Origin: Patescibacteria group bacterium
GTDB lineage: Bacteria; Patescibacteriota; Saccharimonadia; Saccharimonadales; JAUPVS01
Assembly (NCBI GenBank): GCA_030916945.1
Contig: JAUPVS010000009.1
Coordinates: 1-42,781, forward strand
Reading direction: 5' to 3'
DNA length: 42,781 nt
Shown one piece after another: positions 1,775 through 24,660 of the stretch. Within the stretch, counting starts at the first letter, position 1, and every line of letters starts with the position of its first letter. The translations under genes were made by a program, and so were the position numbers. A model generated the notes under the pieces. It was not told where the DNA came from. It was given only the letters and a program-made list of their open reading frames with translations, and ran no database searches.

Positions 1775-1865
1775 GCGAGGACTCGATCTCGCTGCGCTCG
1801 CGTTTCCTCGCATGCTCGAAACAAGTTTCTGCGCCTGCTCGTCACGAACAAACTACTCAGTAGTT
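1775..1865 (-). repeat. Dispersed modular hairpin element, copy A
   Basis: Plus-strand bases 1788-1819 (32 nt) are identical to 3758-3789, and 1830-1850 (21 nt) are identical to 3800-3820. Between and beside these fixed blocks sit hairpins whose stems differ from copy B but still pair: GAAAC/GTTTC (1818-1829), and the palindrome AACTACTCAGTAGTT (1851-1865). A further 7-bp stem, GCGAGGA/TCCTCGC, joins 1775-1781 to 1805-1811. The element lies beyond the terminator of the minus-strand SinR-family gene. No coding capacity is credible. Confidence 0.85.
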
Positions 1866-1885
1866 CCTGTCGCCTAACCAGAACA

Positions 1886-1923
1886 AAGAAAAACACTCAG
1901 TAGCAAGATTGAGTGTTTTTCTT
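1886..1923. terminator. Strong bidirectional terminator
   Basis: A perfect 14-bp inverted repeat (1886-1899 with 1910-1923) has a 10-nt loop. The outer stem is A-rich on one side and T-rich on the other, so either strand would end in a U-run. It serves the minus-strand SinR-family gene. Confidence 0.75.
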
Positions 1924-2001
1924 CGGTGCAGCTAATGGGGCTTCTCTCGAAACCACCGAAGTAGGAGGTGGCCCAGGCGAGGCCGGGCCACTTCAACGCC
2001 G

Positions 2002-2277
2002 CTACCAGCGACGACTGGAACTATTGAGCCACTCAACAGATTCTTTGTTCATGTTGAAGCTGGCCCAGTTCCGAGTAATAGGTGCGACGAAGTACTCGTC
2101 GTTCTCGTCACCAGCTTTGTGCAAGCCGTCACGAAGTAACTGTGGGCTAGTAAGCGTGTCAACAAGCCAGACCGAACCTTGAGGGTGAGTATTGCTACCC
2201 GCTGCCTTGATGACGGCATACACCGCATCATAGTCTCGTCCATGCTGATGCAAATCGTAAGCTATCTGTAAAACCAT
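2002..2277 (-). CDS. SinR-family (Cas2/VapD-like fold) small protein
   Basis: The 91-residue protein starts MVLQIAYDLHQHGRDYDAVY and continues with 'GSVWLVDTLTSPQLLRDGL' and 'DENDEYFVAPITRNWASF'. This is the pattern of so-called SinR family proteins (beta-alpha-beta start with I-x-YDL, then a W-L-V strand and an N/D-D-x-x-F-V strand), which are compared to the ferredoxin-like fold of Cas2 and VapD. Family function is unclear. The ATG at 2277 was preferred to the in-frame one at 2352 because AGGAGG lies just before it. The gene is alone: no cas genes or CRISPR array are nearby. Its 3' side carries three consecutive hairpins, and a GC-rich decamer near each end (1973-1982 and 2352-2361) is in inverted orientation. 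Confidence 0.7.
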   Translation of the reverse strand: MVLQIAYDLHQHGRDYDAVYAVIKAAGSNTHPQGSVWLVDTLTSPQLLRDGLHKAGDENDEYFVAPITRNWASFNMNKESVEWLNSSSRRW

Positions 2278-2453
2278 TTGGTTAACCTCCTTTCTAGCGC
2301 ATAGAGAGCGCTGTAGTTTTTCCACACACATGGGGTTTTTGTTTGAGCCCACCTCGCCTGGCTCGGCTCCAAGTGCACCTTATATTATAGCATGTAACAC
2401 AAGGTCATTGACGTACTGTCAATAACCATAAGCATTATCTGGATCTTCTCTCG

Positions 2454-3620
2454 CTAGGGCTTATTGGAATTTGATCCCTTCGTTGGTGCAACCTTCTTGT
2501 CCGGAGTTGCAGGTTCTGGCTTTGAGCCCGTTGGCTTCTTCAGCGCTTTGTCTAGTTCTTTAATCTCTTCTTTGGTGACTTTGACCGAGAAAGGTAGCTG
2601 CTTCGCTTCCGGTGTTCCGCTATACAGCGTGCGAAGTTCTTGGTTCTTACTTGCAAGCGACTTCTGGAGAGCAGGTTCGCGAATTGACCCGTCCTTGGCA
2701 GCGCTCGCCGTCGGTGGGATAACCTCCACCTTTACACCTTCTTGTATATCTTTAAGGACGAGGCTGAAGGCCGTTTCGAAGTGAGACTCGAGTTCTGCCT
2801 TTTCGCGACCAGACGCGCCGTTTTTGTGAAGCTCGAACACTTCCAAACGAGCCTCTCCGATACACGCATTCTTTATCGAAGCTTCCCCCTCTTTCAGCTT
2901 CTCAAGTGTTTGGCGCTTGATCTCATTGTCAATTCCTAGCCCCTCGATTTCTAAACGGGTCTTTTGTATCTTCTGAACTTCCTGGTAGAGCTTCAGAACA
3001 TGCTTGAGAACGACATCAATTGCTTTGGCTACAGGTATAGTCTCCGCCAGGAAGAGAATGATAGAACCATTGTCAACGCGTACAATATTTGACGTTCCGT
3101 CTTCGCCGACTACCTCTGAGCAAGTGCGCAAGAAGATGTCCAAGTTCTTTAGACGTTCCGCGACGTCGCGGATATCTGCCTGATCGCTAGGTATAGTTAG
3201 GCCGACCTGGTAGTTAAGAGAACGATAAGGCGTGATGCCAATCGTGACTAAGCCGCCACGGAGTCCGGAGGCATGATCAAGGAACTGTGTGTAGCTTGCG
3301 CGATAGTCACCGATGCGGCCAGTGATGCTCAGCGAACTACCGGAAAAAATCTCTTCTAGCTCGGACAATGCACCGTTGCCAACAAACTCCTCACCATCTA
3401 ATTCAACAATTATTGAGTAGAGTGATGGCGGATAGGTGTTTGTTGGCGCAGCCCCCAGTTGTTGATAAAGTTCGTCTCTCATTTCCTCGGCCGCCTTAAA
3501 TGCTTCTGCGTTGTTTTGCGCCAGCTGGCTTTCGATTTCAGTGAGGCGGCCACGAAGATTGACCTTGGCATCGTATTCGACGATATCTTCAAGTACTGTA
3601 AGAAGTTTTTGCGTATCCAC
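2454..3620 (-). CDS. Unknown 388-residue protein with charged C-terminal half
   Basis: I do not recognise this protein. It starts with GTG at 3620, preceded by GGAGGG. Residues 1-60 are helical and charged. About residues 65-185 look like an alpha/beta domain ('SLYSIIVELDGEEF', 'GGLVTIGITPYRSLNYQ'). A hydrophobic stretch near 185-225 ('NGSIILFLAETIPVAKAID') leads into a long charged helix. The last 60 residues are Lys/Pro/Ser-rich and probably disordered. The hydrophobic helix followed by 'LYQEVQKIQKTRLEIEGLG' recalls helix-linker regions in proteins of bacterial conflict systems, but this is a weak resemblance. No catalytic motif is visible. Confidence 0.6.
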   Translation of the reverse strand: MDTQKLLTVLEDIVEYDAKVNLRGRLTEIESQLAQNNAEAFKAAEEMRDELYQQLGAAPTNTYPPSLYSIIVELDGEEFVGNGALSELEEIFSGSSLSITGRIGDYRASYTQFLDHASGLRGGLVTIGITPYRSLNYQVGLTIPSDQADIRDVAERLKNLDIFLRTCSEVVGEDGTSNIVRVDNGSIILFLAETIPVAKAIDVVLKHVLKLYQEVQKIQKTRLEIEGLGIDNEIKRQTLEKLKEGEASIKNACIGEARLEVFELHKNGASGREKAELESHFETAFSLVLKDIQEGVKVEVIPPTASAAKDGSIREPALQKSLASKNQELRTLYSGTPEAKQLPFSVKVTKEEIKELDKALKKPTGSKPEPATPDKKVAPTKGSNSNKP

Positions 3621-3757
3621 TGGTGAGCCCTCCGTTATTTAGACCCACCAATCTTTTCTAGCTATATTGTGACATATTGATTACTGGATTCAAACTGTCC
3701 AGTCACTTCTTTTTGTCATGAAATGAATACCTCTAATTCTAAGTATGAAACGGAGAC

Positions 3758-3845
3758 CTCGCTGCGCTCGCGTTTCCTCGCATGCTCGATACCAGCATCT
3801 GCGCCTGCTCGTCACGAACAAACTCGCCCTTGCGGGCTTCGAGTT
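3758..3845 (-). repeat. Dispersed modular hairpin element, copy B
   Basis: This is the second copy of the element at 1775-1865. The fixed blocks 3758-3789 and 3800-3820 are identical to copy A. The hairpins are different in sequence but still pair: GATAC/GCATC (3788-3799, one G-U) replaces GAAAC/GTTTC, and an AACTCG/CGAGTT stem with an inner GCCC/GGGC (3821-3845) replaces the copy A palindrome. The element sits just beyond the terminator of tRNA-Gly, in the same orientation relative to transcription as copy A. Confidence 0.85.
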
Positions 3846-3863
3846 TGGACCCTGCACCTAGAC

Positions 3864-3899
3864 CAAAGAAAAAACCCACTTGGCAGTGGGTCCTTTCTT
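3864..3899 (-). terminator. Terminator of tRNA-Gly
   Basis: A 7-bp stem (3874-3880 with 3885-3891) lies immediately 3' of the tRNA on the minus strand, followed by a T-run (A-run 3868-3873 on the plus strand). The outer part of the repeat (3862-3868 with 3897-3903) reaches into the CCA end of the tRNA. Confidence 0.75.
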
Positions 3900-3975
3900 T
3901 GGTGCGGGTGACGAGACTCAAACTCGTGGCCTCTTCCTTGGCAAGGAAGCGCTCTATCAACTGAGCTACACCCGC
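3900..3975 (-). tRNA. tRNA-Gly (anticodon GCC)
   Basis: A full cloverleaf can be drawn on the minus strand: acceptor GCGGGTG/CACCCGC, D arm beginning TAGCTCAGTTGATAGAGC, anticodon stem CTTCC/GGAAG around loop TTGCCAA, and a T arm with TTTGAGT. The anticodon GCC reads glycine codons. The discriminator is A and CCA is encoded (3900-3902). Length is 76 nt. Confidence 0.95.
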
Positions 3976-24264: not shown

Positions 24265-24338
24265 TGGGGATTGGCCAAGCGGTAAGGCAGCGGATTCTGG
24301 TTCCGCGATCGGGGGTTCGAATCCCTCATCCCCAGCCA
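24265..24338 (+). tRNA. tRNA-Gln (anticodon CTG)
   Basis: Acceptor TGGGGAT pairs with ATCCCCA, the D arm reads TGGCCAAGCGGTAAGGCA, and the anticodon stem GCGGA/TCCGC closes loop TTCTGGT, giving anticodon CTG. The T arm contains GGTTCGAATCC. Discriminator G and an encoded CCA complete the 74-nt gene. A minus-strand open frame (24261-24533) across it is rejected. Confidence 0.95.
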
Positions 24339-24371: not shown

Positions 24372-24393
24372 ATGGCTTTGAGTGAGAGGGATG

Positions 24394-24500
24394 ATAACCG
24401 TCCTTTTGCGCAGCAAAAGAGGTTCGGCGAAGTGAGCAATGCGAACGAAGAAGCGACGAGCACAAAGTGCGAGGGAAGCGCTATCCTGCCACCCCAGCCA
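24394..24500 (+). repeat. Modular hairpin element, copy C
   Basis: It shares with copy D the blocks GGTTCGGCGAAGTGAGC, GCGAACGAA.AAGCGACGAG and CACAAAGTGCGAGGGAAGCG, and the 3' end CTATCCTGCCACCC.AGCCA. The 5' hairpin here is CTTTTGC-GCA-GCAAAAG (24403-24419), different from copy D in stem sequence but alike in shape. A small stem, GCA/TGC (24436-24442), replaces GCCT/AGGC of copy D. The 3' end looks like a tRNA T-arm and acceptor tail. Confidence 0.85.
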
Positions 24501-24538
24501 GTTTTGCAGAATGACTTTTAAGTCGTTATGCAAAACTG
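24501..24538. repeat. 38-nt imperfect palindrome between copies C and D
   Basis: GTTTTGCA (24501-24508) pairs with TGCAAAAC at the far end, and AATGACTT pairs with AAGTCGTT inside, leaving almost no loop. No T-run follows, so it is not an ordinary terminator. Confidence 0.6.
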
Positions 24539-24553
24539 TTTAAGATGTTGGGA

Positions 24554-24660
24554 TTTGAACCGTAGCTGCGTAGCAGCAGGTTCGGCGAAGTGAGCCTAAG
24601 GCGAACGAAAAAGCGACGAGCACAAAGTGCGAGGGAAGCGCTATCCTGCCACCCTAGCCA
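24554..24660 (+). repeat. Modular hairpin element, copy D
   Basis: The second copy of the element at 24394-24500. Its 5' hairpin is GAACC-GTA-GCTGC-GTA-GCAGC-A-GGTTC (24557-24583), and its internal palindrome is GCCTAAGGC (24594-24602). From 24603 on it is nearly identical to copy C, with one A/G and one T/C difference seen. Confidence 0.85.

Follow-up and report, generated by a model that had tools for sequence, protein, structure and literature searches.

Short structured units behind tRNA genes in Saccharimonadia: probable tRNA-targeted mini-integrative elements with an attC-like end

The stretch of DNA analysed here, called the window, comprises positions 1 to 42,781 of contig JAUPVS010000009.1, from a Patescibacteria group bacterium of the order Saccharimonadales. 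Two similar repeats within it, originally noticed by inspection of the letters, were found to belong to a family of short structured units associated with tRNA genes. These units are probably tRNA-targeted mini-integrative elements, moved in trans and ending in a folded site like the attC sites of integrons. The parts come in this order: an intact tRNA gene, a terminator, a stretch antisense to part of the T-arm, a variable hairpin, a copy of the T-arm's 5' half, a core hairpin and a second tRNA 3' end.

For 89 of the 136 distinct units, a tRNA gene of the same strand stands no more than 200 nt upstream, and 35 anticodons are represented. The segment following the core corresponds to the last 18 nt or so of the unit's own tRNA, usually up to the CCA; for 78 of the 89 units, the own tRNA matches it better than over 95% of the other isotypes, against 2 of 89 in a control based on the tRNA 5' half. 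A weaker preference for the cognate tRNA is seen for the antisense (31/89) and the direct (28/89) T-arm copies, and exact antisense copies over 16-20 nt are found in L031 (Asp), L046 (Leu) and L048 (Glu). The second tRNA copy starts at position 58-60 in 50 of 76 cases, and reaches the CCA end in 46. Inserts have a median length of 175 nt, most units being uniform at about this size, and tandem units occur. A restored target tRNA, with a displaced 3' fragment at the far end, is the arrangement by which tRNA-integrated islands are recognised, and the topology of integration at the T-loop is well supported.

Gain and loss were evaluated by comparing two congeneric genomes, G153 and G163, in which the strict pattern places units at 22 of 41 and 3 of 40 tRNA genes, respectively. 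Four tRNA genes with conserved neighbours on one or both sides, namely Leu(caa), Pro(tgg), Ser(tga) and Val(tac), have a unit in G153 but none in G163; an empty site in relatives is a further mark of tRNA-integrated islands. Behind tRNA-Asp in G153, the terminator that comes after the displaced CCA has the loop TCCTCGCCGAT, as does the one directly behind tRNA-Asp in G163, indicating that the insert has entered ahead of the tRNA's original terminator and carries another one itself. Cores located at different tRNAs are more alike within a genome than between genomes (0.494 vs 0.435; 1 of 500 permutations), a likeness that would fit spread among tRNA genes with re-matched arms. When copies of the tRNA's own 3' end were looked for 90-400 nt downstream, independently of the core, they were found for 19 of 40 tRNAs in G153 and 10 of 39 in G163, compared to about one in control regions; further core types therefore exist.

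The core hairpin was analyzed in an alignment of 111 distinct sequences (A2), where its helix is composed of 13 pairs. Standard pairs occupy 92.1% of the cells, and both sides change in 11 of the 13 pairs. Cells with double changes are 243, against 75.9 +/- 7.4 after shuffling and 55 at most when partners are slid; a smaller first alignment of 47 sequences agrees. Since the alignments were chosen by their conserved flanks, the informative part is represented by the variable tip and the outer stem. The core also carries conserved unpaired positions; its reading as a k-turn was rejected, since Watson-Crick covariation is seen at the GA/UC positions. Folding of 72 tRNA-adjacent units gave a mean z of -2.1, with a predicted P2 helix in 63 of them.

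The family was searched for in 198 genomes of the order. The core pattern, GCRCAGA followed by a hairpin and TCGAGCATG, matches 31 of them, while a reversed control pattern matches none; named records carrying it are Candidatus Saccharibacteria, Saccharimonadia and a few metagenome-assembled genomes labelled otherwise. By a covariance model, R1, copies were found in 67 of the 198 genomes, the most in G153 (23), with 16 in G024. A wider model, R2, built on 111 copies, was applied to 287 genomes of the phylum, where it produced five positives, all from class Saccharimonadia; units of two further orders of this class likewise lie behind tRNA genes. The family was thus found only in Saccharimonadia. 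BLAST of the window genome revealed a third copy behind tRNA-Lys, and the weak matches in relatives are nearly all beside tRNA genes. Family f35 is represented by many sampled genomes, of which a single one has a match, and only one; units are present in many of the other families sampled, which suggests loss in f35.

Chance similarity was ruled out as the source of the repeats by the shuffle and reversed-pattern controls, and a viral origin was rejected, as the exact unit patterns have no match among IMG/VR contigs. Some BLAST matches (L008, L011, L012) and pattern matches (L032, L033, L060, L064) occur in different contexts and were judged spurious; a suspected motif behind the units, AAGCATAAGC, is not enriched (1 observed, 0.5 expected). 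At Rfam gathering cut-offs, only tRNAs are matched in the window and in five unit loci. No description of the units was found in the literature searched, which covered few subscription papers and no bioRxiv preprints, and the family is apparently undescribed.

The strong covariation of the core also speaks for a cis-acting structured RNA, which would be transcribed past a leaky terminator and would pair with, or mimic, the T-arm, controlling maturation, turnover or termination of the tRNA. The G-U wobbles retained in the sense-strand pairing, the position always downstream on the tRNA strand and the antisense T-arm copy point in the same direction. Such an RNA is nevertheless unlikely, given the sporadic presence of the units (67 of 198 genomes, and the unequal occupation of the two congeners) at unrelated tRNAs, their placement behind a terminator, the frequent decay of the 3' copy, the existence of tandem copies and of units lacking a tRNA or placed around genes.

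Integration as DNA also accounts best for the two repeats in the window, located at 1785-1854 and 3755-3824, with 93% identity over 70 nt. The shared blocks reported for them are present, the first of 32 nt and the second of at least 21 nt, and the 20-mer TGCGCCTGCTCGTCACGAAC occurs in the window at these two places only, with 0 expected in shuffles. Although they had been read on the plus strand, their biological sense is that of the minus strand, on which the adjacent tRNA-Gly also lies and on which a terminator does precede both copies. Two covarying stems had been proposed. The first is a real pairing change: GATAC/GCATC of copy 2 contains an A-C mismatch on the plus strand, which becomes a G-T wobble on the minus strand (GATGC/GTATC), so that the stem pairs only in the sense orientation. 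The second, AACTCG/CGAGTT of copy 2, had been taken for a compensatory change but reproduces the T-arm of the adjacent tRNA-Gly (CGAGTTTG), and therefore provides no independent covariation.

The original prediction was thus correct about covariation for the first stem, although two copies alone could not demonstrate it, and it missed the tRNA context, which explains why the second stem is modular. It rightly proposed a structured element with selected pairing and arms swapped as modules, and the element is absent from Rfam; the further copies it expected exist (11 in the window genome by R2, many in relatives), and the core covaries strongly in A2. Of the natures it envisaged, a mobile hairpin element or DNA structural site comes close to the best explanation, while a purely non-coding RNA is less supported than DNA integration.

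Copy 2 (3747-3861, minus strand) lies directly behind tRNA-Gly(gcc) and its terminator. Features of the two Gly-type units, of the region between them and of two other units in the window are as follows.

3900-3975, minus: tRNA-Gly(gcc), the target, found by ARAGORN and Rfam; its 3' half (CTCGTCACCCGCACCA) would have been brought along and displaced by the unit.
3862-3899, minus: terminator hairpin of unit 2, beginning at the tRNA CCA end (from the sequence; terminator scan site 3874-3891).
3840-3859, minus: stretch antisense to part of the T-arm and 3' end of tRNA-Gly (AGGTGCAGGGTCCAAACTCG), from sequence comparison and the family-wide statistic.
3827-3839, minus: variable loop between the inverted and direct T-arm copies of unit 2.
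3815-3826, minus: direct copy of the T-arm 5' half (CGAGTTTGTTCG), pairing with the inverted copy (sequence and folding).
3781-3807, minus: conserved core hairpin of unit 2 (R2 match 3757-3831, E 2.8e-11; A2 covariation).
3747-3780, minus: putative right end and junction of unit 2; the junction GTCTC resembles GAGTCTC of tRNA-Gly.
2454-3620, minus: possible cargo gene, 388 amino acids, no Pfam or PADLOC family; cargo status suggested by its position between units.
2002-2352, minus: possible cargo gene, 116 amino acids, no Pfam or PADLOC family; cargo status likewise presumed.
1925-1932, minus: putative tRNA-end-like remnant (GCTGCACC) ahead of the unit 1 terminator.
1884-1924, minus: terminator hairpin of unit 1 (sequence).
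1845-1865, minus: variable hairpin AACTACTGAGTAGTT plus GTTCG of unit 1 (sequence).
1811-1837, minus: conserved core hairpin of unit 1 (R2 match 1787-1861, E 1.0e-12; A2 covariation).
1771-1784, minus: displaced tRNA-Gly-like 3' end GAGTCCTCGCACCA (sequence comparison).
24265-24338, plus: tRNA-Gln(ctg), the target gene of two units in tandem, whose core differs from that of units 1 and 2.
24384-24500, plus: first Gln unit, with inverted arm at 24384-24400, variant core (GCGACGAGCACAAAGTGCGAGGGAAGCGC) and displaced 3' end at 24483-24500.
24501-24660, plus: second Gln unit, in tandem with the first; it has a terminator of its own, an inverted arm at 24550-24561 and a displaced 3' end at 24643-24660.

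Variants of this anatomy were also recorded. A copy related to the two Gln units, whose core is GCGACGAGCACAAAGTGCGAGGGAAGCGC, is found at C17:654-723 of the window genome, with no annotated tRNA ahead. In G163, tRNA-Lys and tRNA-Met (L183, L190) are followed by a further core type (CGTTAGTCTGTTGC..GCGCACAGATTAACG), with the same displaced 3' end. At L061:4998-5024, a core lies ahead of the tRNA-Ser gene, beside a second copy of the gene's 5' part (GGAGGGGTCGCCTAGTGGCCTATG), and insertion apparently took place at the D-arm instead of the T-loop. The tRNA-Asn ahead of the unit in L039/L114 seems to be interrupted by a candidate group I intron, which would hide it from ARAGORN.

Gene-free units are in the majority, but several unit-gene-unit arrangements were found. 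In the window genome, two almost identical units behind tRNA-Asp enclose an APH-family kinase gene (297 amino acids); in L151, an AAA_18-like kinase (171 amino acids) lies between two units behind tRNA-His. A GNAT gene, a tRNA-end remnant, a terminator and a unit follow tRNA-Asn in L052, while NUDIX, PAS, NUDIX and GNAT genes separate tRNA-Gln from the unit in L156, where G163 has the unit directly. RibD_C is also among the enclosed families, and a CBASS-like operon (oligonucleotide cyclase plus 2TM effector; L057:5328-7908) directly precedes a unit ending in GCACCA. The two open reading frames between copy 2 and copy 1 of the window belong to no known family, and none of the cargo reading frames scanned is an integrase.

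According to the mechanism proposed, a unit would enter a tRNA gene at the T-loop, at about position 58/59, supplying a replacement 3' half and a terminator and pushing the original 3' half downstream; the tRNA would thus stay functional and properly ended. The far end would be a structured site whose core hairpin falls exactly where the T-loop crossover takes place. In a single strand, the antisense copy would pair with the direct halves, recreating the T-arm duplex with the core protruding, much as a duplex core site is re-formed in integron attC sites. A trans-acting tyrosine recombinase, possibly host Xer, would then recombine this folded structure with the T-arm of a tRNA gene in double-stranded form. 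Genes caught between units would travel as cassettes. The data show the anatomy, the tRNA specificity, the boundaries, the covariation, gain and loss between congeners and occasional cargo, while movement as DNA, the folded single strand and the enzyme are inferred.

The family to which Xer belongs, PF00589, is present in 184 of the 198 genomes, mostly in one copy, and is the only recombinase family tested that occurs in nearly all of them. Reverse transcriptase, Y1 transposase, serine recombinase and IS110 were rejected as movers, since none is found in G153, the richest genome: a reverse transcriptase is present in 3 of 16 unit-bearing genomes, Y1 is absent from G000, G153, G007, G064 and others, the serine recombinase is missing from G153, and the DEDD recombinase of IS110 occurs in 0 of the 16. 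A unit lies about 1.1 kb from a PF00589 (Xer-like) gene in G001 (C9), G007 (C20) and G061 (C40), a proximity which may reflect only the conserved tRNA neighbours of xer. At L066:2984-5575, on contig C17 of the window genome, a reverse transcriptase of 363 amino acids stands beside a 463-amino-acid protein with a possible variable C-terminal domain; the locus looks like a diversity-generating retroelement.

Several observations weigh against an integrative element with a folded end. Taken singly, the window copies do not fold better than shuffles (z of -0.67 and -1.56), so that it is comparison between copies that supports structure. The complete fold is predicted for only some of the units, with P1 in 21 of 72 and all three helices in 7; because of the low P1 count, the attC-like part of the proposal is less certain than integration. 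Xer is equally present in unit-free genomes, no recombinase was found linked to units, and neither a circular form nor live movement was seen. The within-genome likeness of cores is modest, most units contain no genes, and the near-identical units flanking some genes could derive from homologous recombination.

The units share with tRNA-integrated islands, including tycheposon-like ones, the split and restored tRNA with its displaced 3' fragment at the far end, as left by a tyrosine integrase crossing over at the T-loop. This topology is what would be expected if they were attachment-site debris, or satellites, of ordinary phages or islands targeting tRNAs, with the integrase elsewhere; PMC4383910 describes tDNA islands as a restored gene plus a displaced fragment. 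Some units also flank cargo such as CBASS. This origin is nonetheless improbable, since standard attachment sites have neither a conserved structured core nor an antisense arm, most units are uniform inserts, and their exact patterns are unmatched in IMG/VR. Islands also measure kilobases, against about 175 nt here, while the units lack an integrase of their own, have a conserved structured core, cover 35 anticodons and, in one genome, are present at over half of the tRNA genes.

Two other explanations are very doubtful. In retroviral primer binding sites, tRNA positions 59-76 are copied, with a stop at m1A58, giving a tRNA primer length of 18 nt; a tRNA-primed reverse transcriptase, whose cDNA would have been inserted behind the tRNA, would agree with the start of the copied block, mostly at 58-60, its end at the CCA and its length close to 18 nt, but 13 of the 16 unit-bearing genomes, G153 included, have no such enzyme, the one of the window genome belongs to the apparent diversity-generating retroelement, and tyrosine integrases crossing over at the T-loop leave the same 58-60 boundary. 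Duplication of tRNA ends by replication slippage or template switching at hairpins, homogenised by gene conversion with the tRNA, would produce inverted then direct T-arm copies, local matching and near-identical unit pairs without any mobile system, but is already disfavoured by the conserved core, as it leaves unexplained a shared, covarying hairpin with conserved unpaired positions at dozens of tRNAs in many genera.

The units can be compared with integron cassettes and their attC sites, with which they share an imperfect hairpin end, conserved unpaired positions, a variable terminal loop, insertion at a target site, tandem arrays and a small cargo of similar kinds (APH-, GNAT- and NUDIX-like); outer arms are complementary, as in attC, in some units only. 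Unlike integrons, they have as targets tRNA T-loops rather than attI, with arms matching the local tRNA, they are mostly gene-free, with their own terminator and tRNA 3' end, and apart from PF00589, normally present once, no IntI-type gene was seen, in scans that used no model specific to IntI. The units therefore combine the topology of tRNA islands with the anatomy of integron cassettes, and lack the integrase typical of both.

That host Xer can act on single-stranded DNA folded into a hairpin has a precedent in attP(+) of CTXphi and in other Xer-using elements, which target dif rather than tRNA genes and are not cassettes. Like the hairpins of repetitive extragenic palindromic sequences, bacterial interspersed mosaic elements and miniature inverted-repeat transposable elements, the units are short, repeated, palindromic, non-coding and, as proposed, moved in trans; those hairpins, however, are not targeted to tRNAs and have no target-derived arms, and Y1 is missing from several unit carriers. 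The bridge RNA of IS110 similarly joins a fixed scaffold to target-matching arms, but its recombinase is absent from all 16 unit-bearing genomes. It is tentatively suggested that the units may form a self-contained, non-integron cassette system, with tRNA genes as platforms, a folded end rebuilding the T-arm around a conserved, protein-binding hairpin, host Xer as mover and arms re-templated at each tRNA.

For annotation, displaced tRNA ends and hairpins behind tRNAs should be regarded as boundaries of elements. If the proposal is true, the origin of integron attC sites from Xer chemistry would become testable. Saccharibacteria live as episymbionts of very small size, most of them uncultured; few mobile elements are known in them, and integrons are not known from this lineage. 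If real, tRNA-based cassettes would provide them with a route for gene capture, including defence genes, resistance-like kinases and acetyltransferases.
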